Shown one piece after another: positions 25,848 to 42,550 of a DNA stretch of 64,000 bases; position 1 is the stretch's first letter; every line of letters starts with the position of its first letter. This DNA is from Thermincola carboxydiphila (GTDB taxonomy: Bacteria; Bacillota; Thermincolia; Thermincolales; UBA2595). Location of the stretch: NCBI GenBank assembly GCA_016841725.1, contig JAENYP010000018.1:1-64000 (forward strand), read 5' to 3'. The notes beneath the pieces were generated by a model, which made no database searches, was not told the DNA's origin, and was given only the letters and a program-made list of their open reading frames with translations. A program made the translations under genes and the position numbers.

Positions 25848-26809
25848 GCATAGATGTGGGTTCTGTAAGTACAAATATTGTACTTATTGATGAGGATGAA
25901 AAGGTATGTGATTCCCTCTATATAAGGACACAGGGACAGCCGATAAAAGCTGTGCAGAAAGGCCTGGAGTATATCAGGGGGAGGATTTCTGACGAAATTG
26001 TAATTGGGGGTGTCGGCACAACCGGAAGCGGCAGGCATCTTGCCAGTATTATCGTGGGAGCCGATTCGGTAAAAAATGAGATTACATCCCATGCTGTTGC
26101 AGCCTCGAACCTGGTTCCGGGGGTCCAGACGGTCCTGGAAATAGGCGGACAGGACTCCAAGATAATTATCCTGAGGAATGGTGTTGTTGCCGATTTCGCC
26201 ATGAATACCGTTTGTGCGGCAGGGACCGGTTCATTTCTGGACCAGCAGGCTGCTAGACTTAATATACCGATAGAGGAGTTCGGGGATATTGCTTTAAAAG
26301 CCGGAAACCCGGTGCGGATAGCAGGAAGGTGTTCGGTTTTTGCCGAATCAGATATGATCCACAAACAGCAGATGGGACATAATCTTCCTGATATCCTGGC
26401 AGGCCTTTGTGATGCCCTGGTGCGGAATTACCTTAATAATATAGGTAAAGGCAAGGAGATACTGGAACCGGTAATTTTCCAGGGTGGTGTGGCAGCAAAT
26501 ATCGGGATTAAGAAGGCATTTGAAAAAACGCTTGGTGTGGAGGTTATTATCCCGGAGCATTATGATGTCATGGGAGCAGTCGGTGCAGCCATTCTGGCCC
26601 GGGATGCCGTCAGAAAAACCGGGACTACGTCTTTTAAGGGATTTGGAGTGGCAGAAGAGATGTTTGAAGCTACCAGCTTTGAATGCAAGGACTGTCCTAA
26701 TCTCTGTGAGGTAATACAAATCAAGGCCGGCGGACAAATAATGGCCCGGTGGAATGACAAGTGTGGCAAGTGGAGCAATGCAATTGGAGAGAAAAAGAAA
26801 ATTAGTTGA
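25832..26809 (+). CDS. Acyl-CoA dehydratase activase ATPase (BcrAD/HgdC type)
   Basis: A 325-residue ASKHA-fold ATPase. The first phosphate loop is GIDVGSVSTN, the second region has GTTGSGR and EIGGQDSKI, and the cluster cysteines lie in NTVCAAGTGSFLDQQ near residue 130 and AGRCSVFAESD near 170. HgdC-type activators use ATP hydrolysis to push an electron from a dimer-bridging [4Fe-4S] cluster into a partner enzyme. A C-terminal CKDCPNLC extension of about 50 residues adds further cysteines. No dehydratase subunit lies nearby, so the acceptor is unknown. The stop overlaps the promoter of the downstream transporter operon. Confidence 0.88.
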   Translation: MFGYLGIDVGSVSTNIVLIDEDEKVCDSLYIRTQGQPIKAVQKGLEYIRGRISDEIVIGGVGTTGSGRHLASIIVGADSVKNEITSHAVAASNLVPGVQTVLEIGGQDSKIIILRNGVVADFAMNTVCAAGTGSFLDQQAARLNIPIEEFGDIALKAGNPVRIAGRCSVFAESDMIHKQQMGHNLPDILAGLCDALVRNYLNNIGKGKEILEPVIFQGGVAANIGIKKAFEKTLGVEVIIPEHYDVMGAVGAAILARDAVRKTGTTSFKGFGVAEEMFEATSFECKDCPNLCEVIQIKAGGQIMARWNDKCGKWSNAIGEKKKIS

Positions 26810-26835
26810 CAGAGACTTTTGTATCATGGTAAACT
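26806..26835 (+). promoter_or_regulatory. Sigma-A promoter of the dctPQM operon
   Basis: TTGACA (26806-26811) and TAAACT (26830-26835) are separated by 18 bases. The -35 element overlaps the stop of the upstream gene. Transcription would begin near 26842, giving a leader of about 165 bases. Confidence 0.55.
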
Positions 26836-26846
26836 TTTAATAAATC

Positions 26847-26979
26847 CGGGAGACAAAAGGCAGGATACCCGGACCAGATGAGATGAGATATAAGACGAGT
26901 CGAGCATAGCTGAGGTGAGTTTGCTGCACTTATGGAGGATTTTACCAGCACTCATTTGAGGTGCTGGTTTTTGTTTGTC
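26847..26979 (+). promoter_or_regulatory. Predicted MtrB-type tryptophan attenuator, dctPQM leader
   Basis: The leader has a 5' stem-loop (CCGGG with CCCGG, about 26847-26872), then nine NAG triplets: CAG 26875, GAG 26880, GAG 26885, AAG 26892, GAG 26897, GAG 26902, TAG 26907, GAG 26912, GAG 26917. Spacers are 2 bases except one of 4. An intrinsic terminator follows (ACCAGCAC with GTGCTGGT, 26944-26968, and a T-run). The triplet end GTGAGT..GCTG (26916-26929) can pair with CAGCACTCAT of the terminator 5' arm. This is the layout of trp RNA-binding attenuation protein sites; occupancy would favour termination. Confidence 0.65.
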
Positions 26980-27006: not shown

Positions 27007-28047
27007 TTGAAAAAGAAAATTGTGTTAAGTGTAATTTTAGTTGCATTCCTGGCTGCCGGGATAATTTTTTCGGGGTGCAGTTCAGGAGAAAAGGGTGCCC
27101 TTGGGGATGACAAGCAAATTACCCTGAGGTATGCATTTTTTGCGCCGGCCACCACCTTTCCGGCAAAACAGATGGAGAAGTGGAAGGAAGAACTTGAAAC
27201 CAGGACCAATGGAAAGGTCAAGGTGGAACTATTCCATGGTGGGACACTGCTGACAGATAAAAATATGTATGACGGTGTCAGGGACGGAGTGGCTGAGATT
27301 GGCCTGTCCTGCACTACATATGAACCGGGAAGGTTTCCGCTGATGGCGGTTGCAGACCTGCCTTCAGGGTTCACCAACTCCAAAGTTGCCAGCCAGGTGG
27401 TTTTTGACCTGGTAAGCGAGTACCCACCCGAAGCCTTCAAGGATTACAAAATTATTACCGCATTTGCCACAGAACCGTCACACCTGATGGTTAAAGAACC
27501 GGTTGCCAAATTGGAAGACCTTAAGGGACGCCAGTTGAGGATATCCGGCGCCCTGACCCCTGTATTGGAGGAACTGGGAGCTTCTCCGGTGGGGATGTCT
27601 ATGTCAGAAGTTCCTGAAGCTCTGCAGACCGGAATCGTTAAAGGTCTTGTCAGTTCCAGGGAAGTCCTTAAGGACCTGAAGCTTGCGGAAAATGCCAGGT
27701 ATACCACTGATTATCCGCTGACAATAACTACCTTTGTTGCAGTTATGAACAAGGATATATGGGAATCCCTGCCCCCTGATGTGCAGCAGGTAATAGACGA
27801 ACTGAGCGGTGAAATGGCAGTGTGGACCGGAGATTATATGGATAATCATGTCAAGGATGCCTTAGAATGGAGCAAGCAGGAATACGGGCTGCAGATGACA
27901 ACTCTGACACCGGAAGAAACGGCAAGATGGGATGCGAAACTAAAGCCTATTCAGGATAACTATGTTGCTGAAATGGAGGGCCAGGGACTTCCGGCAAAGG
28001 CTTATCAAAAGAGGCTCTATGAGCTTATAGAAAAATACAGTAACTAG
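27007..28047 (+). CDS. Tripartite transporter solute-binding protein (DctP family)
   Basis: A 346-residue lipoprotein: basic start, hydrophobic segment and lipobox FSGC near residue 23. The mature part is a DctP/TAXI-type binding protein (YAFFAPATTFPAKQMEKW at the start, a GRQLRISGA strand with the substrate arginine near residue 177, and the ALQTGIVKGLVSSREV motif). It hands its ligand to the DctQM permease by a sodium-coupled mechanism. The ligand is not evident. Similarity of its leader to a tryptophan attenuator suggests an aromatic acid. The start is TTG 27007 after AAGGAGG. Confidence 0.9.
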   Translation: MKKKIVLSVILVAFLAAGIIFSGCSSGEKGALGDDKQITLRYAFFAPATTFPAKQMEKWKEELETRTNGKVKVELFHGGTLLTDKNMYDGVRDGVAEIGLSCTTYEPGRFPLMAVADLPSGFTNSKVASQVVFDLVSEYPPEAFKDYKIITAFATEPSHLMVKEPVAKLEDLKGRQLRISGALTPVLEELGASPVGMSMSEVPEALQTGIVKGLVSSREVLKDLKLAENARYTTDYPLTITTFVAVMNKDIWESLPPDVQQVIDELSGEMAVWTGDYMDNHVKDALEWSKQEYGLQMTTLTPEETARWDAKLKPIQDNYVAEMEGQGLPAKAYQKRLYELIEKYSN

Positions 28048-28067
28048 CAATATGGGGGTGCTCTACT

Positions 28068-28601
28068 TTGGGGGTTTTAGAAGAACAAATTGTACGTGAA
28101 AGAAACAGGGATACAGTATCCCGGCTTGAAAGCCTAAGCAGGTATCTGAACACAGGGCTTGCCGTCATAGCAGGCTGCAGTCTGCTGCTGATGGTGCTGA
28201 CAGTTGTGGCAAACGCCGCAGCCCGGGAAATATCTGCTCCATATGCCGGGACTACCGAAATAGTCGGCTGGCTGGCAGCGGTGACGACAGCCTTTGGCCT
28301 GGGGTACACCCAGCTTAATAAAGGCTATGTTGATATTGAAGCACTGGTGGAAAGATTTCCAATGGGAGTTCAGAATGCTTTAAAAAGTATTATGCTTTTT
28401 GCCAGCACGATTTTCTTCGGACTTGTAAGCTGGAAGGTCTGTGTCTATGGGATTAATGTCGCTGAAAACGGCAACCTTTCCGAAACAATGGGAATTACCT
28501 TCTACCCCCTGATTTTTCTGGTAGCCCTTGGATTTGCAGGACTGACCCTGGCGCTTCTGGTGGACTTTCTTAAACAGGTAACCGGGGGTGTGGAGAAATG
28601 A
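28068..28601 (+). CDS. Tripartite transporter small permease (DctQ family)
   Basis: A 177-residue protein with four membrane helices (about residues 25-50, 65-85, 105-125 and 145-165), the DctQ pattern, including the NAAAREISAPYAGTTEI stretch in the first loop. It forms the membrane complex with DctM. TTG 28068 follows a weak ribosome site. It overlaps dctM by four bases. Confidence 0.9.
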   Translation: MGVLEEQIVRERNRDTVSRLESLSRYLNTGLAVIAGCSLLLMVLTVVANAAAREISAPYAGTTEIVGWLAAVTTAFGLGYTQLNKGYVDIEALVERFPMGVQNALKSIMLFASTIFFGLVSWKVCVYGINVAENGNLSETMGITFYPLIFLVALGFAGLTLALLVDFLKQVTGGVEK

Positions 28602-29887
28602 GCCTTTTGACAATGGCTATGGTCGGGATGCTGCTGCTGCTGGTGTTAATGCTGCTGAGAATGCCGATAAGTTTTGCCATGTTTATTGTGGGGTTCCTCG
28701 GCCTTATGGTTGTGGTTTCACCTACAGCTGCCTTCAATGTACTCAGTGCGGACCTGTGGAACCAGTTTTCCAGCTACTCTATGAGTGTCATCCCCTTGTA
28801 TATATTTATGGGTGAAATAGTGTTCCGGAGCGGTGTTACCGAAAGCCTTTTCAAGGCGGCATACAAATGGGTAGGGCAGTTCAGGGGCGGGATGGCAAGC
28901 ACAGTTATCCTGGCCAGTTCGGGTTTTGCCGCCATCTGCGGTTCAAACTCGGCGACTGCTGCAACCATGGGCACCATGGCCCTGCCGGAACTGAAAAAAT
29001 ACAAATATGATGAGACATTAAGCTCAGGTGTTGTGGCAGCAGGAGGTACCCTTGGGGTAGTGATTCCGCCCAGTACGGTACTGCTGGTTATTGCCCTCCA
29101 GACAGAACAGTCTGTCAGGCAGTTGTTTGTTTCCAGCATTATACCCGGGGTAATTCTGACCATGACCTTTCTGGCCATCGTGTATTTTCTGTGTATGAAA
29201 AACCCCGAATTGGGGCCGGCCGGGCCCAAGACGACTTTCGCAGAGAAACTCAGGTCACTGATAGGGGTTATTCCCACCCTGGCGCTGTTTATTTTTGTTA
29301 TCGGAGGCCTTTTGCGCGGCTGGTTTACCCCGACGGAGTCAGGCGCCTTTGGAGCCTTTGGGGCGCTGGTAATAGCGATTGTGATGCGGAAACTGACCTT
29401 TAACAATCTTAAGGACGCCATTTCGGGAACCCTGAAATCAGCAACAATGGTGATTACACTGATGATAGGGGCTATGGTGTTTGGGAGATTCCTTACCATA
29501 ACCAGGCTGCCGTACGATATTGCGGCCTGGACCGGTTCCCTGGATGTAGCCCCGGTACTTATACTGTCGGCTATCCTGGTGATATTCGTTATTGGCGGCG
29601 CACTGATGGATGCTCTGGGGTTCCTGATTATTTCGATCCCGATTTTTTTCCCTACTATCATCGCACTGGGATATGATCCGGTATGGTTTGCCGTGGTACT
29701 ATGCATGGTAACCACTGCCGGTGCCATCACACCACCGGTTGGGGTATCGGTTTTTGTGGTCAAGGGACTGACACCTGATACACCCATTATGTCAATTTTT
29801 AAGGGTGCGGGCTATTTCCTGGCTGCTTATGCGGTAGTTACCATTTTGCTTATTGCCTTTCCGAAGATTGTCACTTTTATGCTTTGA
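28598..29887 (+). CDS. Tripartite transporter large permease (DctM family)
   Basis: A 429-residue protein with about 11-12 membrane segments. The family stretches GSNSATAATMGTMALPE near residue 110, GGTLGVVIPPS and FTPTESGAFGAFGAL are visible. It is the ion-coupled transport subunit. The gene is last in the dctPQM operon and is followed by a long foldback element rather than a simple terminator. Confidence 0.93.
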   Translation: MSLLTMAMVGMLLLLVLMLLRMPISFAMFIVGFLGLMVVVSPTAAFNVLSADLWNQFSSYSMSVIPLYIFMGEIVFRSGVTESLFKAAYKWVGQFRGGMASTVILASSGFAAICGSNSATAATMGTMALPELKKYKYDETLSSGVVAAGGTLGVVIPPSTVLLVIALQTEQSVRQLFVSSIIPGVILTMTFLAIVYFLCMKNPELGPAGPKTTFAEKLRSLIGVIPTLALFIFVIGGLLRGWFTPTESGAFGAFGALVIAIVMRKLTFNNLKDAISGTLKSATMVITLMIGAMVFGRFLTITRLPYDIAAWTGSLDVAPVLILSAILVIFVIGGALMDALGFLIISIPIFFPTIIALGYDPVWFAVVLCMVTTAGAITPPVGVSVFVVKGLTPDTPIMSIFKGAGYFLAAYAVVTILLIAFPKIVTFML

Positions 29888-30254: not shown

Positions 30255-31343
30255 ATGGATATAGCTGTGATAGGAGGCGGCCATGGAGCTTATGCTGCGG
30301 CTGCCGACCTGGCAGAAAAAGGACACAGTGTCCGGTTATGGAGGCGTAACCGGGAGGAATTCCAGCCTGTTATCAAAAAACAGGCTATTATTTTAAAAGA
30401 TTATAATGGCACCAGGAGTGTTAGGCTGGCACTTGCCGGCAGCGACATTGCTGAGGTTGTCCAAGGCGCCCGGATCCTGGTAATTCCTCTTCCGGCTGTG
30501 GCACAGGAATCATTGGTGCAGGAACTGGCCCCCTGCCTGGAGGATGGGCAGGTAATCCTGCTCTGCCCGGGAACTTTCGGGAGTTTTGTGATGGCCGGGG
30601 GACTCAGAGAAAAGGGTTGTTCTGCCCGGGTTGTTTTTGCGGAAACAGGGACCCTTCCATACCTGGCGAGGAAACACGGGCCGGATACGGTTGCAGTCAC
30701 TACGCGGGCGACCCGCCTGCCAACCGGTGTTTTTCCGGCAGATAAATCTGATTATGCTTTTGAAATAATAAAAGAGGCTTATCCTGCAGCAGAGATGTTG
30801 ACAGATGCCCTTGACGGGGCGCTGATGAATGCGGGACCTATTATCCATCCCCCGCTGATAATGCTGAATGCCGGGCCCATTGAACACTTTGACTTCTGGG
30901 ATATTCACAATGAGGGTACCCAACCGGCTGTGCGCAGGGTCCATGATGCCCTGGATGCGGAGCGGATAGCTGTGAGGGAAGCCCTTGGCTACGGTCCGCC
31001 GCATTTTCCTCTTGCAGACCATTACAACAGTACCGGCGGAGATGAATGGATGTACGGGAATGCGGCTCACGAGAAGCTTGTTGACAGCAGTGACTGGCGG
31101 GAACGCCTGGATCTTTACGGGCACCGGTACATGACTGAGGACATTGCCTGTGGTCTGGCATTTCTGGTATCTGTGGCTGACTGGGCAGGAATTGATGTAC
31201 CTGTGGCCCGGGGGATATTGACTCTGGCGTCAGCGATTTTGGGCAGAGACCTGCGTTCCGGATCCAGAACTCTGGAAGGAATGGGTCTGAGAGGATTAAC
31301 GGATATGGAAATGAAGAAACTGCTGGCAGAGGGTGTATTTTAA
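30255..31343 (+). CDS. NAD/NADP octopine/nopaline dehydrogenase family protein
   Basis: A 362-residue dehydrogenase. The Rossmann dinucleotide motif is IAVIGGGHGAYAAAADLAEKG with the charged turn after it at RRNREEF; the C-terminal opine-dehydrogenase domain shows GPIIHPPLIMLNAGPIE near residue 195 and a conserved His-Asp region (HFPLADHYNST). Such enzymes reduce an imine formed between an amino acid and a 2-oxo acid. The substrate is unknown, but neighbours that handle aryl pyruvates make an aromatic 2-oxo or amino acid possible. AAGGAG precedes ATG 30255. The next gene overlaps the stop by one base. Confidence 0.85.
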   Translation: MDIAVIGGGHGAYAAAADLAEKGHSVRLWRRNREEFQPVIKKQAIILKDYNGTRSVRLALAGSDIAEVVQGARILVIPLPAVAQESLVQELAPCLEDGQVILLCPGTFGSFVMAGGLREKGCSARVVFAETGTLPYLARKHGPDTVAVTTRATRLPTGVFPADKSDYAFEIIKEAYPAAEMLTDALDGALMNAGPIIHPPLIMLNAGPIEHFDFWDIHNEGTQPAVRRVHDALDAERIAVREALGYGPPHFPLADHYNSTGGDEWMYGNAAHEKLVDSSDWRERLDLYGHRYMTEDIACGLAFLVSVADWAGIDVPVARGILTLASAILGRDLRSGSRTLEGMGLRGLTDMEMKKLLAEGVF

Positions 31344-32329
31344 TGATGAGGGATAAACCTGTTATTGCAGTAGTTGGCGCCGGGCGCATGGGCATAGGCA
31401 TCGCCCATGTTTTTGCATACTCCGGTTACAGAGTGAGGCTGCTTGACGCCCGGGACAGGTCTTCACAAGAGACACAACAGGTGTTGGGTTCAGCAGAGAG
31501 ACAGGTGAGGGAGACCCTGGCAATGCTGGCCTCACTTGGGGTGATGGAAGAAAACCAGGTGAACACAATCATGTCCCGGATTGGCTATTTCGGAATGGTA
31601 CAGGCGGAGGAAGCGCTTAAGGATGCCGGTGTGGTATTTGAAGCGGTTCCTGAAGTGATGGAAATAAAACGTAGTATTTTTGGTCTTATCAGCAGCCTTG
31701 CAGAAGAAAAAGCCCTTATTGCATCAACAACATCCACGTTTTTGTCTGATAGCCTGGCCGCTTTTGTAACTTCCCCGGAGAGGTTTATGAATACACACTG
31801 GCTGAACCCGGCCTACCTTATTCCACTTGTGGAAGTAAGTCCTGCAGAGGGTACAGGTTTTGCAGAGGTTGAAGCCATGGTCAGACTCCTTGAAGCAGCA
31901 GGCAAAGTTCCGGTCAAATGTGCGGCTTCCCCCGGTTTTATTGTGCCGCGCATCCAGGCATTGGCTATGAATGAGGCTGCCAGACTGGCAGAGGAGGGAG
32001 TTGCTTCTCCGGAAGACATCGATAAGGCAACAAGGGTTGGTTTCGGTCTGAGGTTTGCTGTCCTGGGACTTCTTGAATTCATTGACTGGGGTGGAGGAGA
32101 TATTCTGTATTATGCGGACAATTACCTCAAAGATGCCCTCAAAACAGACCGGTATGAGCCGCCCGAGATAATTGTGTCAAATATGGAGTCAGGCAGAACC
32201 GGCCTGAGAGCAGGAAAGGGGTTCTATGATTTCACCGGTTTGGATGTGGACTCATACCGGCGCGAAACAATCAAAAAGTTTGCCGACCTGCTGATTCACC
32301 TGGGCCTGTTTACCAGACCACCTCAATGA
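31343..32329 (+). CDS. 3-hydroxyacyl-CoA dehydrogenase family protein
   Basis: A 328-residue NAD-binding protein: VAVVGAGRMGIGIAHVFA-type N-terminus, the acidic LLDAR turn, and the STTSTFLSDSLA and MNTHWLNPAYLIPLVEVSP blocks that hold the catalytic Ser, His and Asn of the 3-hydroxyacyl-CoA dehydrogenase family. It lacks a crotonase domain. Members of this single-domain group include 3-hydroxybutyryl-CoA dehydrogenase and enzymes acting on small hydroxy acids such as carnitine or gulonate, so the substrate is open. It is coupled to the opine-dehydrogenase gene. Confidence 0.85.
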   Translation: MMRDKPVIAVVGAGRMGIGIAHVFAYSGYRVRLLDARDRSSQETQQVLGSAERQVRETLAMLASLGVMEENQVNTIMSRIGYFGMVQAEEALKDAGVVFEAVPEVMEIKRSIFGLISSLAEEKALIASTTSTFLSDSLAAFVTSPERFMNTHWLNPAYLIPLVEVSPAEGTGFAEVEAMVRLLEAAGKVPVKCAASPGFIVPRIQALAMNEAARLAEEGVASPEDIDKATRVGFGLRFAVLGLLEFIDWGGGDILYYADNYLKDALKTDRYEPPEIIVSNMESGRTGLRAGKGFYDFTGLDVDSYRRETIKKFADLLIHLGLFTRPPQ

Positions 32330-32357: not shown

Positions 32358-32386
32358 CTGACAAATATTTAAAACTGTGTTACAAT
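32358..32386 (+). promoter_or_regulatory. Sigma-A promoter of the iorAB operon
   Basis: CTGACA (32358-32363) and TACAAT (32381-32386) are separated by 17 bases, one mismatch each to the consensus. Transcription would start near 32393, leaving a leader of about 225 bases. Confidence 0.6.
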
Positions 32387-32436: not shown

Positions 32437-32531
32437 TAGAAGAGATGAGTAAGCAGAGTTGAGCTGGAACTGATGAGCTGAGCATAATCAGTTTATTAGG
32501 CCAGGCTTTTTGAAAAAAAAGACCTGGTTTT
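32437..32531 (+). promoter_or_regulatory. Predicted MtrB-type tryptophan attenuator, iorAB leader
   Basis: Eight NAG triplets lie at TAG 32437, GAG 32442, GAG 32447, AAG 32451, GAG 32456, GAG 32461, GAG 32475 and GAG 32480, with spacers of 2, 2, 1, 2, 2, 11 and 2 bases. A terminator follows: CCAGGCTTTTT (32501-32511) with AAAAAGACCTGG and a short T-run. The competing antiterminator is AGCTGG (32462-32467) plus AACTGAT (32468-32474) pairing with ATCAGTT (32487-32493) and CCAGGCT. Its 5' strand overlaps a triplet and its 3' strand overlaps the terminator arm. Confidence 0.6.
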
Positions 32532-32617: not shown

Positions 32618-34465
32618 ATGACTAGGAAAATGCTGTTGATGGGAAATGAAGCCATCGCCCGCGGAGCGGTTGAAGCAGGTGTCCAGGTAGCTGCGGCCTA
32701 CCCCGGAACTCCTTCTTCCGAAGTGTTCAGCACCCTGGCAAGGTTTGCCGAGGAGTATGATTATTATGCCGAGTGGTCAGTAAACGAAAAAGTGGCCCTC
32801 GAGGTTGCGGCAGGAGCTGCCTATGCAGGTGCGAGAGCAATTGTGTCAATGAAACAGGTTGGCCTTAATGTTGCTGCTGACCCGCTGATGACACTGGCAT
32901 ATATTGGGGTAAAGGGAGGGCTGGTACTGGTGGTTGCCGATGACCCCGGACCTCACAGCTCTCAGAATGAACAGGATACCAGAGTATTTGCCGGGTTGGC
33001 CAAACTGCCGGTGTTTGACCCGGCATCTCCCCAGGAAGCCAAGGACATGACAATCGCTGCTTTTGAACTCTCAGAGAGACTTAACCTTCCTGTCTTTATA
33101 AGGCCGACAACTCGTACCTGTCATGTGTGTCAGGATGTCGTGATTAATGAAACCGGTCTGCGAAACAGTATTGGGTTTAAAAAAGACCCTTCATGGGTTA
33201 TTTTCCCCAGTCTTGCATACAAAAAACACAAATGGTTGAATGAACAGCAGGAAGCGGCCCGAGAGATTTTTAATGAATCACCTTTTAACAAGCTCGAACT
33301 TAAAACCAGAGCAGGCATCATTGCTTCCGGAGTGGCCTATAATTATGTCAAAGAGGCCTTGGATATGCTTGATATGGAAGTTTCCGTCCTTAAGATTGGG
33401 ACACCGTATCCGCTGCCAGACAAACAGGTGCTGCAGCTCTTGAAAAATACCGACAGGGTCCTTGTTATTGAGGAACTGGAACCTGTTGTCGAGGACCAGG
33501 TTATTGCGATGGCCTGGAAGAATGGTATAGCTGCCGGGATTTCCGGAAAAAACGATACGTTTGTACCGCGCGAGGGAGAACTTAATGTAGATAAGGTCAG
33601 GGATATTTTGGTGCGTTATTTCGGTCTGGCCGGCAGTGAAGCTTCTCAGGCTGCAGATGATGAGTCTCAGGCTGCACCCGGTGTAAACAGGAACTCTGAT
33701 AGTACTCCCGAAAAACCGGTTCTTCCTGAGAGGGCCCCCATTCTTTGTGCCGGATGTCCCCACCGGGCTTCATTCTATATTTTTAAAGAAACAGCCCGTA
33801 AAGATGATGCTGTGTTTACCGGTGATATCGGGTGTTACACCCTTGGGGTAATGCCGCCGCTCAGCGCAATGGATACCTGCCTGTGTATGGGCGCCAGTGT
33901 TACTATTGCATCAGGTATGGCAGCTGTGGAAAAAGACCGGAAGCACATCGCCTTCCTGGGGGATTCAACATTTTTCCATACAGGTCTGGCAGGCCTGATA
34001 AATGCGGTTTATAATAACTCAGACATTACCCTTGTTGTGCTCGATAACAGAACTACGGCTATGACAGGCCACCAACCGCATCCCGGGCTGAACCGGACGG
34101 CAACGGGCATGAATGAGAAGCATATAGATATTGCCGGTGTGGCCAGGGCAGTCGGGGTGGAACTTGTCAGGGAAGTTGATCCCTATGACCTGGAGGCTGC
34201 CAGGGAGGCAGCCATTGCGGCTGTTGCCCATAAAGGGGTTTCGGTTGTAATCATGAAACGGGAATGTATAGCTATTGTAAAAACTGTTAAGAAATGCACA
34301 GTTGACACCGAAAAGTGTATCGGGTGCAAGAAGTGTATGAACGATCTGGGCTGCCCGGCCCTGGTTCCTGATGGGGATAAGGTTGCCATAGGCAATACCT
34401 GTAACGGGTGTAATGTCTGTGGGCAGATATGTCCTGTCGGGGCAATCGGGGAGGTGGTCTTATGA
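32618..34465 (+). CDS. iorA: Indolepyruvate ferredoxin oxidoreductase, alpha subunit
   Basis: A 615-residue thiamine-diphosphate enzyme subunit. With IorB it interconverts aryl pyruvates with aryl-acetyl-CoA, CO2 and reduced ferredoxin. The N-terminal pyrimidine-binding domain has GNEAIARGAVEAGVQVAAAYPGTPSSE split over residues 9-35; the diphosphate domain has GDIGCYTLG and the GDSTF...N pattern near residues 450-470; two [4Fe-4S] sites close the protein (CIGCKKCMNDLGCP and CNGCNVCGQICP). A glutamine- and alanine-rich linker near residue 345 is specific. It leads iorAB-paaK-trpB2. Confidence 0.95.
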   Translation: MTRKMLLMGNEAIARGAVEAGVQVAAAYPGTPSSEVFSTLARFAEEYDYYAEWSVNEKVALEVAAGAAYAGARAIVSMKQVGLNVAADPLMTLAYIGVKGGLVLVVADDPGPHSSQNEQDTRVFAGLAKLPVFDPASPQEAKDMTIAAFELSERLNLPVFIRPTTRTCHVCQDVVINETGLRNSIGFKKDPSWVIFPSLAYKKHKWLNEQQEAAREIFNESPFNKLELKTRAGIIASGVAYNYVKEALDMLDMEVSVLKIGTPYPLPDKQVLQLLKNTDRVLVIEELEPVVEDQVIAMAWKNGIAAGISGKNDTFVPREGELNVDKVRDILVRYFGLAGSEASQAADDESQAAPGVNRNSDSTPEKPVLPERAPILCAGCPHRASFYIFKETARKDDAVFTGDIGCYTLGVMPPLSAMDTCLCMGASVTIASGMAAVEKDRKHIAFLGDSTFFHTGLAGLINAVYNNSDITLVVLDNRTTAMTGHQPHPGLNRTATGMNEKHIDIAGVARAVGVELVREVDPYDLEAAREAAIAAVAHKGVSVVIMKRECIAIVKTVKKCTVDTEKCIGCKKCMNDLGCPALVPDGDKVAIGNTCNGCNVCGQICPVGAIGEVVL

Positions 34466-35049
34466 GAATGGACATAGTTATTGCCGGAGTCGGAGGACAG
34501 GGTACAGTTCTTGCTTCACGGGTTATTGCCCAGGCTGCTCTTGATGCCGGACTTGCGGTACGCACCTCGGAAACAATTGGAATGGCCCAGAGAGAAGGTA
34601 CTGTTACCAGTCATGTGAGAATTGGCGAACCTCTTTATGGAGCTCTTATACCTGACGGGTCAGCAGATGTACTGCTAGGTTTTGAAATGGCGGAAACCGC
34701 CCGCTGGCTGCACAAGCTCAAACCGGGTGGAACAGTTCTGGCAAACAGCGCCAGGATAATACCCGTATCTGTGGCCAGTGGGAGGTCGAAATATGAGGCT
34801 GATACCATAATGGAATACCTTAGGTCAACTACCGATAGCCTGACCATGCTGGATGCCACAGAGTTGGCGATAAAGGCAGGAAATTACCGGGCGACCAATA
34901 CCGTACTTTTGGGGGCGATGTCAACCCTTCCCTGTTTACCGTTTAAATCAAAAGGCCTGTTGTCTGCATTACTGGAGACAATTCCTGCTAAGTTAAGAGA
35001 TATTAACAGCCGGGCATTTGAGCTGGGCAGGCAGGCTGTGGAGGTGTGA
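34462..35049 (+). CDS. iorB: Indolepyruvate ferredoxin oxidoreductase, beta subunit
   Basis: A 195-residue gamma-domain subunit: VIAGVGGQGTVLASRVIAQAA at the start and SETIGMAQREGTVTSHVRIG near residues 38-57 are typical of 2-oxoacid oxidoreductase gamma/beta chains. ATG 34462 overlaps the iorA stop, indicating coupled translation in equal amounts. A start further upstream would lie within the iorA ferredoxin domain. paaK follows in four bases. Confidence 0.93.
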   Translation: MRMDIVIAGVGGQGTVLASRVIAQAALDAGLAVRTSETIGMAQREGTVTSHVRIGEPLYGALIPDGSADVLLGFEMAETARWLHKLKPGGTVLANSARIIPVSVASGRSKYEADTIMEYLRSTTDSLTMLDATELAIKAGNYRATNTVLLGAMSTLPCLPFKSKGLLSALLETIPAKLRDINSRAFELGRQAVEV

Positions 35050-35052
35050 TAG

Positions 35053-36336
35053 GTGGCTGTTGAAGAGAGAGAATGCAATGTGGAGATTGATTTTGAAGAA
35101 CTATTTGAGGAGCAGAGCCGGAAGCTTTCAGCCATGGTTGAGAGTTTGTACCGGAATTCGCCGTTTTACCGGGAAAAGCTCGATAAAGCAGGCATCAAAC
35201 CAGAAGATGTCCGGTGTGTGCAGGACCTGGAAAAGGTTCCGTTTACTACCAAGAGCGAGCTTAGGGAAGGATATCCCTTTGGTCTGATGGCTGTTCCCGA
35301 AGAACAGGTGGTCCGGATACATTCATCTTCAGGTACTACCGGTAAGCCGATAATTGTTCCCTATACCAAGAATGATGTCTCTGTCTGGGCTGAGATGATG
35401 GCCAGGTGTATGGAAATGGCAGGGGTAACCCCCAGGGACCGGGTGCAGGTAACCCCAGGTTATGGTTTATGGACTGCGGGCATTGGCTTTCAGGCCGGTG
35501 TGGAGCAGCTGGGAGCAATGGCAATCCCGACAGGCCCGGGAAACACCGAGAAACAGCTGGAAATGATGGTTGATATAGGGACTACAGTTCTGATAGGAAC
35601 TTCATCATATGGCTTACTCCTTGCTGAAGAAATTCATAAAAGAGGTATCAGGGACAAGGTGAAGCTCAGAATAGGCATATTTGGTTCGGAGCGTTGGAGT
35701 GACAAGATGCGGGCCCGGATTGAAGAGGATCTTGGAATCGACACCTTTGACATTTATGGCCTTACGGAAATATATGGTCCCGGCATTGGAATAGACTGCC
35801 CCAGGCATCAGGGAATCCATTTTTGGAGTGATCACCTGATATTTGAAATTATTGATCCTGAAACAGGTAAACAGCTTCCGCCGGGAACCCAGGGAGAACT
35901 GGTGATTACCACCCTTACGAAGGAAGGCATGCCGCTCTTGCGATACCGGACTCATGATGTATCTACACTGCACAGGGAGAAGTGCCTTTGCGGGAGTCCG
36001 TTCCCGATGATTGACCGGGTACTGGGCCGAACTGATGATATGATTAAGGTTAAGGGTGTAAATATATACCCCGGACAGATTGACCATGTGCTCAGGATGA
36101 CTGCGGGAGCCTGCAGTGAATACCAGATTGTACTTACCAGAGAAAATGCCAAGGACCGGATCCTCATCAAGGTGGAAGCAGAAGATGGCTGCGGGTTGGA
36201 GAAGGTATCCGGGGAATGCAAAAAGAACATCAAGACAAAAATAGGCATAATAGCAGACGTCGAGACTGTGCCCAGGGGAACCCTGCCCAGGAGTGAAAAG
36301 AAAACCAAAAGAGTTTATGATAATCGTGACTGCTGA
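35053..36336 (+). CDS. paaK: Phenylacetate-CoA ligase family enzyme
   Basis: A 427-residue AMP-forming ligase that activates phenylacetate, or a related aryl acetate, to its CoA thioester. The P-loop is HSSSGTTGKP near residue 95; the YGLTE-type motif appears as DIYGLTEIYGPG near 235-246; TKEGMPLLRYRTHD near 295 is the A8-like hinge region; and the C-terminal AMP-binding domain is present. The length is normal. GTG 35053 follows GAGGTGTG. Directly after iorAB, it could feed or drain the aryl-acetyl-CoA pool of IorAB. Confidence 0.9.
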   Translation: MAVEERECNVEIDFEELFEEQSRKLSAMVESLYRNSPFYREKLDKAGIKPEDVRCVQDLEKVPFTTKSELREGYPFGLMAVPEEQVVRIHSSSGTTGKPIIVPYTKNDVSVWAEMMARCMEMAGVTPRDRVQVTPGYGLWTAGIGFQAGVEQLGAMAIPTGPGNTEKQLEMMVDIGTTVLIGTSSYGLLLAEEIHKRGIRDKVKLRIGIFGSERWSDKMRARIEEDLGIDTFDIYGLTEIYGPGIGIDCPRHQGIHFWSDHLIFEIIDPETGKQLPPGTQGELVITTLTKEGMPLLRYRTHDVSTLHREKCLCGSPFPMIDRVLGRTDDMIKVKGVNIYPGQIDHVLRMTAGACSEYQIVLTRENAKDRILIKVEAEDGCGLEKVSGECKKNIKTKIGIIADVETVPRGTLPRSEKKTKRVYDNRDC

Positions 36337-36361: not shown

Positions 36362-36388
36362 GAGAGGAGATCTGATGAGATGAGTGAG
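36362..36388 (+). promoter_or_regulatory. GAG-triplet cluster over the trpB2 ribosome site
   Basis: GAG triplets lie at 36362, 36367, 36377, 36382 and 36386. They span the GAGGAG ribosome site and the ATG at 36380. By analogy with translational MtrB targets this could be a third tryptophan-sensitive site, but five triplets is few and ribosome sites are GAG-rich by nature. Confidence 0.35.
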
Positions 36389-37738
36389 ACTAAAATTCTG
36401 CTTACAGAAAAGGAAATGCCGACTTCGTGGTACAATGTGATGGCAGATATGCCAAACCTGCCAAAACCGGCGCTTCATCCGGCAACCCAGAAACCGGTTG
36501 GACCGGAAGACCTTGGGGCCATATTTCCTATGGACCTGATCAAACAGGAGGTATCCACAGACCGCTGGATTGAAATTCCTGAAGAGGTACAGGAGATTTA
36601 TAAGCTGTGGCGGCCTGCCCCGCTTTACCGGGCGTACAGGCTGGAAAAGGCTTTGGATACGCCGGCAAAGATTTATTACAAATATGAAGGGGTCAGCCCT
36701 GCAGGAAGCCATAAGCCAAACACGGCTATACCTCAGGCTTATTACAATAAAGCAGCCGGGATAAAGCGCCTGACCACTGAGACAGGAGCGGGACAATGGG
36801 GCAGCGCCCTGAGTATTGCATGTAAATTTTTTGACATGGAGTGCCTGGTGTATATGGTAAAGGTCAGTTACCACCAGAAGCCATACCGCCGGATTTTCAT
36901 GCAGACATATGGCGCTAATGTAATTGCCAGCCCCAGTGATACCACCGAATCAGGGCGCAAAATCCTGGAGCGTGACCCGGATACGGCGGGCAGCCTTGGA
37001 ATGGCTATCAGTGAAGCAGTGGAAATTGCAGCCCAGAGGGGCGATACAAATTATGCCCTTGGAAGTGTGTTAAACCATGTTATGATTCACCAGTCTGTTA
37101 TTGGCCTGGAAGCAAAGGCTCAGCTGGAGAAGGTGGGCGATTATCCTGACGTAGTAATAGGGTGCTGCGGCGGGGGCAGCAACTTCTCAGGCCTGGCATT
37201 CCCATTTATGCAGGATAAACTCACAAAAGGCACCAAAATAAGGGCTGTTGCAGTCGAACCTGCTGCCTGCCCGACACTGACAAGAGGAAAATTTGCTTAT
37301 GACTTCGGTGATACTGCCGGAATTGTGCCGATACTTAATATGTATACCCTGGGACATGACTTTATGCCGCCCGGAATCCATGCCGGAGGCTTGAGGTATC
37401 ACGGGGAATCTCCGCTGGTCAGCCAGTTGTATCATGATGGCATTATTGAGGCAGTGTCCAGGACACAGCGGTCCTGTTTTGAGGCTTCAATCACCTTTGC
37501 CCAGAGTGAAGGCATCCTGCCTGCTCCGGAATCATCACATGCTATCCGTGTGGCTATAGACGAGGCACTACAGGCAAAGGAAGCAGGGGAAGAGAAGACT
37601 ATCCTGTTCTGCCTCAGCGGCAACGGATATCTTGACCTGCCATCCTATGATGCATACATTAACGGTAAACTGGAAGACTATGAATACCCGGATTCTCTGA
37701 TTGAGGAGTCCCTGAAAAAGCTTCCGGTAAAAGAATAA
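36380..37738 (+). CDS. trpB2: Tryptophan synthase beta chain, TrpB2 type
   Basis: A 452-residue PLP enzyme that condenses indole with serine to tryptophan. The catalytic lysine lies in AGSHKPNTA near residue 114; the phosphate loop is [10 protein letters not shown] near 257-266; [12 protein letters not shown] follows the family. The long N-terminal extension and the overall length mark the TrpB2 branch, which usually works without TrpA and rescues free indole. No trpA or other trp biosynthetic genes are near. It is the last gene of the aryl-pyruvate operon and is followed by a terminator. Confidence 0.93.
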
Positions 37739-37792: not shown

Positions 37793-37959
37793 TAATATCA
37801 AAATACAAAACGCTAAAAGAATCAGCATTACAGAGTAAATGCAAAAAATATGATAAAAAATGAAGTTTAACTGGAAAAATAAATGCAAATATCTTATACT
37901 ATTAATATGTTATTTTTATGGTTGCCAGAAAACGCGCATAGTTGAGGAGGAAGTTAAAA

Positions 37960-39033
37960 GTGAGCGGTGAACTAAGTATTACGTTGACATCTAATTTTAA
38001 AGCCAAACCGCAGAGTGACGCCAAACTGGGTTTTGGCACATTATTTACAGATCATATGTTTGTAATGGATTATGAAGACGGTAAGGGATGGCACAGCCCC
38101 AGGATAGAACCATACGGCAAATTCTGTATTGAGCCGGCGAATATGACACTGCATTATGGACAGGCAATATTTGAAGGAATGAAGGCCTATCGGACGGTTG
38201 ACGGTAAGGTGAAGGTTTTCAGACCCAGAGACTACCTGTCCAGGATGAACCGGTCAGCTGAGAGGCTGTGTATTCCCAAGATAGATGTTGAGTTTGTGCG
38301 CGGCGCCCTGATGAAACTTCTCAGCTTAGAAAAGGAATGGGTTCCTGCCAGTGAAGGGACTTCATTGTATATCAGGCCGTTTATTGTTGCCATGGACCCA
38401 TATATTGGTGTGAGGCCGTCAAAGACATACAGGTTCTTTATTATACTGTCACCTGTAGGCGCATATTATCCTGAAGGGTTCAAACCTGTTAAGATATGGG
38501 TGGAAAACAAGTATGTCAGAGCGGTTAAAGGCGGCACTGGTACGGCAAAAACGGCCGGCAACTATGCTGCCAGTATTTTGGCGGCTGAAGAGGCCAAGGC
38601 CCATGGGTATACCCAGGTGCTATGGCTGGATGGTGTTGAGCGCAGGTATATCGAGGAAGTTGGCACCATGAATATCTTTTTCAAGATAGATGACACTGTG
38701 ATTACACCGGCCCTGGAAGGGAGCATTCTGGGCGGAATGACAAGGGATTCCGTACTGCGGTTGACCAGGGAGTGGGGACTAAAGGTTAGTGAACAGCCCC
38801 TTACTATTGAGGAAGTATATGAAGCACATGATAAAGGGACTCTTCAGGAGATTTTTGGAACAGGTACTGCAGCAGTCATTTCACCCGTTTCAGCCCTTAA
38901 CTGGAAGGGGAATATTATTACTGTAAACGGTGGGGACGCAGGGGAAACCTCGCTGAAGCTGTATGATGAAATAACCGGAATACAGTACGGCAGGTGTTCC
39001 GACATTTTTGACTGGATGGAAGAGGTTGAGTAG
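37960..39033 (+). CDS. ilvE: Branched-chain amino acid aminotransferase (class IV)
   Basis: A 357-residue fold-type IV PLP aminotransferase with ILVE signatures: LHYGQAIFEGMKAYR near residue 65, GGTGTAKTAGNYAAS near 195 (region of the catalytic lysine), and EEVGTMNIFF near 230. It moves amino groups between glutamate and branched 2-oxo acids; homologues also accept aromatic 2-oxo acids, which would suit its neighbours. GTG 37960 is the start because the upstream in-frame TTG is in the GAGGAGG ribosome site. It appears separate from the trpB2 operon. Confidence 0.9.
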   Translation: MSGELSITLTSNFKAKPQSDAKLGFGTLFTDHMFVMDYEDGKGWHSPRIEPYGKFCIEPANMTLHYGQAIFEGMKAYRTVDGKVKVFRPRDYLSRMNRSAERLCIPKIDVEFVRGALMKLLSLEKEWVPASEGTSLYIRPFIVAMDPYIGVRPSKTYRFFIILSPVGAYYPEGFKPVKIWVENKYVRAVKGGTGTAKTAGNYAASILAAEEAKAHGYTQVLWLDGVERRYIEEVGTMNIFFKIDDTVITPALEGSILGGMTRDSVLRLTREWGLKVSEQPLTIEEVYEAHDKGTLQEIFGTGTAAVISPVSALNWKGNIITVNGGDAGETSLKLYDEITGIQYGRCSDIFDWMEEVE

Positions 39034-40041: not shown

Positions 40042-40175
40042 CAAAAAGTCTAATAATTAGAAAATTGTGGCAAAAAAGTCTGCGGGATTTGCAGGGAACA
40101 TGGAAATCATTGTTGAAAATTATAATATCCTGAAAAACTAGGAAATTTACTATTTCAAAAGGAATGGAGAGGGCA

Positions 40176-41330: not shown

Positions 41331-42550
41331 CTAAATTACTGCCTTTTCAACCTTATAGCCCAATGATTTAAGCTTAGAAATCATTTTCTGTTCTTCGGAC
41401 TTGGAGATACGTGTTTTAGCAGGAGGTTCTCTATAAGCTTCTTGCTTTTGAATAATATGGTATATGGCTGTAAGCATGGTCCGTGAAATGGCGACAATGG
41501 CTTTGTTATGACCCCTGCGGGCCTTGATAGAGTTGAACTTGTTGGTAATCCAGGTTCCGGTTTCTTTTACTGCAGCATTTGCGCACTGCACAGGCATTGA
41601 TTTAAGGTAGGAATTGCCTGGTTTGGAGCGTACACGTCTATTCTTACCAGCGGTGCGGTTGTTTTGTGGTGAGACGCCGCCCCAGGAACACAAGTGCATG
41701 GCAGAGTAGAATTTGGACATGTCAGTGCATATTTCTGCGATGATAGCAATTGCTGCAGTTTTTTTAATACCCGGCACAGAACAAAGAAGGTCAATAATCT
41801 TTTGATAAGGCTTAACTTTTCGTCAATCAAGGCTTCAATTTTGGTAATTTTCTCGCTGAGATTAAAAAAGTTGTCCAGGGCAATTCTTATTTTATTAGCT
41901 TGAGTTTCAGTGAGTTCTCCCCTTAAAGCTTCCATAAGTTCAGGAATTTTGCTGCGTAACTTCTTAAGGACAATTAACTGAAGCAAATCTTCAGTAATTT
42001 CCTCTTTGGCGAGAAGGGCAAATATAATATTCATGCCTGATTTGCCAAAGGTATCGGTAGCAACTGATGAGATCATTATATTGGACACAATGAGAGAATT
42101 TTGCACCCTGTTTTTTTCAGCGGAGCGCATTTTAATAAGTTTAGTCCTGTACCTGGTCAGTTCACGTAACTCCCTAATATCTCTGGGGGGAATGAAGCTG
42201 GGGTCAACAAGTCCAATTCTATGTAATTCGGAAAGCCATTTTGCATCGCGGACATCAGTCTTTTTTCCGGGAAAAGTTTTGGTCCGTCTGGGATTAGCGA
42301 GAGTAATGTCAAAATGATCTTCAAACAGGTTAAAAACAGGAATCCAGTACTTACCAGTACTTTCTAAGGCGATGTCCAAGCAGTTGCTTTGCAGGAGCCA
42401 TTCACGGGCAGACAGTATACCTGCCTGCATAGTTGAAAAAGTCTTGGTCCGGACAGAGTATGTGCCGTTAGCTTTAGTCTCATTCAATGCTATTGTGAAG
42501 GACTTTTTGTGAATATCGATACCGGCACAAATGGGATGAATAACCTTCAA
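41331..42550 (-). pseudogene. IS110-family transposase, frameshifted
   Basis: The N-terminal part has the DEDD nuclease motifs CAGIDIHKKSF, ALESTGKYWIP and KKTDVRDAKWL. The C-terminal part has the serine-containing Transposase_20 domain (CSVPGIKKTAAIAI and later SWGGVSPQNNRTAGK). The two are in different frames: the join lies near 41780-41790, where one base is missing between TTGAC and CTTCTTTG. TTG 42550 is the start, after AAGGAGG. IS110 enzymes recombine under guidance of a bridge RNA encoded next to the gene. The element sits right after the recombinase gene; its left end is not defined. Confidence 0.85.

Follow-up and report, generated by a model that had tools for sequence, protein, structure and literature searches.

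In Thermincola carboxydiphila a leader with the look of a tryptophan attenuator stands ahead of the genes iorA, iorB, paaK and trpB2. In bacteria, annotation commonly casts indolepyruvate:ferredoxin oxidoreductase (IOR) in a catabolic role, and the locus raises the question of what the leader senses and in which direction IorAB works. The first-pass annotation of the window (the whole 64,000-nucleotide stretch of DNA analysed) proposed repression by tryptophan and a biosynthetic IorAB. The first proposal is supported by the presence of mtrB in the genome, by the recurrence of the same anatomy in relatives and by an array distribution that follows TRAP. The second is supported by Trp T-boxes on the same operon in TRAP-less relatives, which point to the same sign. 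Judged from sequence, the leader is in all likelihood a TRAP-dependent transcription attenuator on iorA-iorB-paaK-trpB2, the products of which would then supply tryptophan.

NAG arrays and TRAP in the Thermincola genome

The leader of iorA contains eight NAG triplets (TAG at 32437, GAG at 32442 and 32447, AAG at 32451, and GAG at 32456, 32461, 32475 and 32480). Seven of them have the G/UAG form, and the total of eight is below the usual ~9-11 or eleven; TRAP-site triplets are mostly 2-3 nt apart. The gaps between them are 2, 2, 1, 2, 2, 11 and 2 nt, which agrees with the earlier description of triplets mostly two bases apart (five of seven gaps) before a terminator. The terminator hairpin has a predicted energy of -12.0 kcal/mol and its U-tract is short: four U, then broken. 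Both strands of the window were scanned for NAG chains with a scoring scheme of our own. The two best chains were the array ahead of dctPQM (26875-26919; score 7.3) and that of the iorA leader (5.9), and the third best scored 4.9. Dinucleotide-shuffling the window 30 times, with one strand scanned each time, produced a single chain of at least 5.5 altogether, which upholds the view that two leaders of the same logic are unlikely to be due to chance. No T-box or other Rfam element matched in the window at the gathering score, and the iorA leader has no RF00230 match. The features are collected in Table 1.

Table 1. Features of the dctPQM and iorA leaders and of the genes behind them (window coordinates)
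Feature	Position	Strand	Remarks
Promoter-like site of dctPQM leader	26806..26835	+	
NAG array of dctPQM leader	26875..26919	+	9 triplets, same kind as in iorA leader
Intrinsic terminator of dctPQM leader	26944..26968	+	-13.5 kcal/mol
dctP-dctQ-dctM	27007..29887	+	TRAP-type transporter
Promoter-like site of iorA leader	32358..32386	+	CTGACA-17-TACAAT, TG before -10; consensus match only
NAG array of iorA leader, proposed TRAP binding site	32437..32482	+	Eight triplets; chain scan; kept in G001 and G002, altered form in G005
Predicted antiterminator	32461..32508	+	GAGCUGG 32461-32467 with CCA.GCUU 32501-32508; folding prediction, no covariation support
Intrinsic terminator hairpin of iorA leader	32501..32527	+	CCAGGCTTTTT/AAAAAGACCTGG, then UUUU 32528-32531
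iorA, indolepyruvate:ferredoxin oxidoreductase alpha	32618..34465	+	TIGR03336 829 bits, cut-off 650.9
iorB	34453..35049	+	TIGR03334 205.1 bits, marginally under cut-off 205.8
PaaK-like AMP-forming arylacetate-CoA ligase	35053..36336	+	TIGR02155 437.2 bits, under equivalog cut-off 646.3
trpB2 (TrpB-like)	36380..37738	+	TIGR01415/NF009057 above cut-off
Branched-chain-type aminotransferase ilvE_II	37942..39033	+	Possibly last gene of the operon

The genome possesses one mtrB gene, which encodes TRAP (138 bits). It lies outside the window, and its flanks resemble dnaE and accD by eye. The product aligns nearly full-length with TRAP chains of solved structures, including through HHxEKLDKGEV and AQFTEHTSAxKxRGKA, the conserved segments of RNA and tryptophan contact. 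The RNA contacts of TRAP we take to be Lys37, Lys56 and Arg58 (B. subtilis numbers). In the same genome an 11-triplet array and a terminator are found upstream of trpE. A further array of six triplets covers the ribosome-binding region of trpD, ~400 nt past trpG (C38:67030-67057, minus strand; L047:9031-9058), and possibly allows TRAP to control translation within the trp operon.

It is scarcely credible that the triplets are an accident of a purine-rich leader and that the hairpin simply ends the transcript of the upstream gene (31343-32329). The hairpin does lie just ~170 nt past the end of this gene, but a promoter-like site separates the gene from the array, the shuffle controls argue against an accident, and arrays recur in relatives with widely differing leaders (see below). 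A chance origin of the array itself was rejected on the shuffles, by this recurrence and by a control with iorA paralogues.

Arrays and terminators in related genomes

In total 118 iorA loci were examined, that of the window and those of relatives: 55 belong to the IorA clade of the window and 61 are paralogous (type 2). From the listed relatives 80 places were taken, without those that were weaker, split or truncated by a contig end; from a further search most lower-scoring paralogues were left out, as were five places that belong to a single genus (G300, G322, G277, G157 and G343). L157 and L160 were excluded from the 55-locus clade (paaK-like gene downstream, IorA below 500 bits), and L192, L198 and L206 were kept in it (IorA above 500 bits, no paaK at the expected place).

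An array scoring at least 5.4 lies within 260 nt upstream of iorA in 24 of the 55 clade loci. In 21 of these it exceeds all 500 shuffles of its own upstream 400 nt, and in the other three p is 0.002-0.018. Fifteen loci in which iorA was not the first gene, or in which no array was seen at first, were extended further upstream. This uncovered head arrays at seven trpP-ecf-iorAB-paaK operons, at one dctPQM-iorAB-paaK operon and at a single locus whose iorA is broken. The trpP identity was tested in three of the seven trpP-headed genomes, and PF17099 matched in all three. In G370 (L238/L220) an array and a terminator precede an iorA with a seemingly broken reading frame.

When arrays at the operon head are counted, whether iorA, dctP or trpP comes first, 33 of 41 scorable loci from TRAP-bearing genomes possess one (16 family codes; L197, at a contig end, was not scorable, and among TRAP-bearing genomes G332 could not be scored). 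The eight loci without an array are those of G015, which has a T-box instead, and of G058, G302, G233, G183, G207, G219 and G363. Ahead of iorAB-paaK-type operons of TRAP-less relatives there are none (0/13), a contrast which is close to a two-clade comparison because the TRAP difference needs just 2 changes on the IorA tree (2 independent pairs, too few for significance). Among the 61 paralogous loci, 41 of them in TRAP-bearing genomes, only L113 has an array of at least 5 (p 0.01).

Genome-wide, a pattern of five KAG triplets in register was found in 50 of 59 genomes with TRAP versus 7 of 42 without (Fisher p 7e-12, kinship ignored). The TRAP-less genomes served as the control. A reversed-pattern control was dropped for KAG/NAG arrays, since GAG backwards is GAG and the reversed pattern is not a clean null. 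One genome, G090, has five KAG-array matches and no mtrB listed; as its assembly consists of ~450 contigs, the gene may be absent from the assembly.

Homologous leaders vary widely in sequence and terminator, yet they keep the array-plus-terminator anatomy. By chain scoring, the 35 leaders compared (33 of the iorAB type and the dctPQM and trpE leaders of the Thermincola genome) contain 6-14 triplets each. With a cut-off of -9 kcal/mol, 32 of the 35 have a terminator, the stem of which starts 6-57 nt past the array. Among shuffled segments a terminator of any kind occurred in 9 of 350, and among the upstream regions of type-2 iorA in 5 of 61. This argues against TRAP binding the array yet acting chiefly on translation or RNA stability, with a terminator that is always partly read through. 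The iorA array also ends ~135 nt before the start codon, clear of the ribosome-binding site. Such a mode of action, though consistent with the faint antiterminator pairing across leaders (see below), is unlikely as the main one. Arrays which cover the start regions of trpD in the Thermincola genome and, in G081 and G148, of paaK suggest translational control as well.

The gene order in G081 is mtrB, an array with a terminator, iorA, iorB, an array on the paaK start, paaK, a 16-triplet array, trpE, trpD, trpC, trpF and finally the start of a trpB-like gene (named by eye). TRAP, IOR and tryptophan synthesis are here tied together in one place.

This locus (L106, G081:C118) contains four arrays altogether. 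In G148 a second array (L192:3365-3416) lies directly upstream of paaK and downstream of iorA, with no iorB seen in between. A 21-triplet array in G047 (L269:1437-1564) comes straight after mtrB and before genes which by eye resemble DAHP synthase and pieces of trpE.

The proposed switch in the iorA leader

The TRAP attenuator would work as follows. When tryptophan is plentiful, a Trp-loaded TRAP ring would wrap the NAG triplets while the leader is being transcribed and stop GAGCUGG from pairing with the 5' arm of the terminator. The hairpin would then halt transcription near 32530. When tryptophan is scarce and TRAP is released, GAGCUGG could hold CCAGGCU as an antiterminator, and iorA-iorB-paaK-trpB2 would be transcribed.

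Folding predictions bear on this scheme in part. In transcripts ending before the 3' arm of the terminator, the predicted antiterminator forms, drawing on triplets 6-8 together with the 5' arm and enclosing a hairpin at 32470-32499. An antiterminator which shares a triplet and the terminator arm had been proposed earlier, and this much is retained. As the inner helix the folding program prefers CUGAUGAGCUGA/UCAGUUUAUUAG to the AACUGAU/AUCAGUU of that proposal, and triplets 7 and 8 are concealed within the inner hairpin of 12 bp. For the complete leader, the more stable fold is predicted to be the terminator (-34.3 versus -28.7 for the antiterminator), and read-through would therefore depend on folding kinetics. 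The terminator is also predicted to fold when the triplets are constrained unpaired.

In a set of 34 leaders, the energy of pairing between array and terminator 5' arm is -8.1 kcal/mol, versus -7.4 with mismatched arms. Compared with shuffled arms the median p is 0.23, and p is at most 0.1 in 8 of the 34. Structure prediction recovers the antiterminator in shortened transcripts, while the cross-leader pairing is barely above the shuffled controls, and for this reason the antiterminator is a step that we infer. The leaders of the genus are almost identical over the key stretch and gave no covariation support for it.

In B. subtilis the antiterminator spans +60 to +111 and the terminator +108 to +133, according to PMC4027176, and the antiterminator predicted at iorA likewise overlaps the first few bases of the terminator. 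The two systems also share mtrB, NAG/KAG triplets ~2 nt apart and a terminator just downstream. They differ in that the iorA leader has eight triplets and one 11-nt gap instead of eleven triplets, in the target iorAB-paaK-trpB2, and in anti-TRAP (PF15777), which was not found above cut-off in the Thermincola genome (a match below cut-off lies inside a 374-aa frame). Eight triplets are plausible, since TRAP bound transcripts exposing 7-9 repeats on the templates described in PMC4027176.

The attenuator mechanism is already known, and the target set iorAB-paaK-trpB2 is the new part as far as the literature was searched. Searches of open-access PMC papers turned up none that connects TRAP with IOR, and no control of iorAB-paaK by TRAP or by a Trp T-box. 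The trpP (yhaG) and pabA/trpG genes of B. subtilis are TRAP targets under translational control. Arrays ahead of trpP, at the head of trpP-ecf-iorAB-paaK, and on the trpD start are similar to these, but unlike in B. subtilis the trpP arrays of the relatives are followed by terminators.

Trp T-boxes and the direction of IorAB

RF00230 (T-box) matches were found ahead of the iorAB-paaK operon in G012 (93.3 bits), G160 (92.4), G031 (84.5) and G015 (78.3), and in G366 (99.5) before an operon resembling trpP-ecf-iorAB-paaK. Of these five, three do not reach the gathering score of 93 bits but have E of at most 3e-15. The carriers are four of the 13 TRAP-less loci and one TRAP-bearing locus, that of G015. 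The specifier codon, which was assigned by us from alignments, is UGG (Trp) in each of the five. The remaining nine TRAP-less loci have neither an array nor a T-box by cmscan (L214, L215, L217, L221 and L222) or by a T-box motif search (the other four). Like the iorA leader, these T-boxes stand on the iorAB-paaK operon and would switch it on when tryptophan is short; unlike it, they sense uncharged tRNA-Trp, whereas the iorA leader would sense tryptophan through a protein. Their presence on the homologous operon implies that low tryptophan switches it on.

IOR is assigned from iorA, which is above the TIGR03336 cut-off, and from the adjacent iorB, the score of which is marginal. The ligase does not reach the TIGR02155 equivalog level and is termed only PaaK-like. 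It would activate indoleacetate to indoleacetyl-CoA, which IorAB would carboxylate to indolepyruvate using reduced ferredoxin. The aminotransferase would turn indolepyruvate into tryptophan, and TrpB2 would capture indole. The dctPQM transporter, which stands behind the other NAG-array leader, would probably import the aryl acid. Its homologues are joined to iorAB-paaK in the relatives G011 and G276 (those of G276 were recognised as dct genes by eye, on the basis of their translations).

On the evidence above, plentiful tryptophan very probably keeps the iorAB operon switched off, and this supports a biosynthetic IorAB. It is quite unlikely that the leader is a TRAP attenuator on an IorAB-PaaK that works oxidatively, whether to break down aromatic amino acids or to balance redox state, and that tryptophan represses it for another reason. 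The IOR reaction is reversible, and in PMC13285125 IOR is catabolic in fermenting archaea and in the conversion of phenylalanine to phenylacetate by Bacteroides. However, an operon that would be off with tryptophan and on with uncharged tRNA-Trp, and that is found beside trpP, trpB2 and, in G081, the trp operon has the sign of supply, which is the wrong sign for breakdown. The genome also keeps a second iorAB (C14) without an array ahead of it, and the ligase belongs to the AMP-forming PaaK type, argued in PMC13285125 to favour acyl-CoA synthesis. That paper argues likewise for the direction of Bacteroides IOR, from the AMP-forming ligase alone. It also mentions the proposal that IOR works backwards to make amino acids in the reductive aryl-acid carboxylation of methanogens, which the present route resembles. 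The differences from methanogens are that the putative route here is bacterial, in the phylum of the window, and has a PaaK-like AMP-forming ligase and proposed control by TRAP or a T-box. The operon genes thus probably make tryptophan from indoleacetate, and IorAB would run opposite to the usual breakdown reading.

A tryptophan-repressed leader, together with a Trp T-box elsewhere, would provide a simple test of IOR direction and set a biosynthetic IorAB clade, with paaK downstream, apart from its paralogues. More broadly, it appears reasonably likely that in the TRAP carriers of the phylum the regulon exceeds the trp operon. It would include uptake of an aryl acid or of tryptophan (dctPQM, trpP-ECF), the activation of indoleacetate and its reductive carboxylation (paaK, iorAB) and indole capture (trpB2), with a Trp T-box following the same logic in TRAP-less genomes and with arrays on paaK or trpD starts adding translational control in some. 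The known TRAP regulon would then extend to tryptophan salvage from indoleacetate and indole in anaerobes. If so, two unrelated RNA devices serve interchangeably on a single operon, one an attenuator bound by a protein and the other sensing tRNA, and the relatives offer a natural example of the swap.

Downstream of the operon, two overlapping frames at 41331-42550 (minus strand) resemble by eye pieces of one transposase, and an integrase-like gene, also named by eye, neighbours them at 40164.
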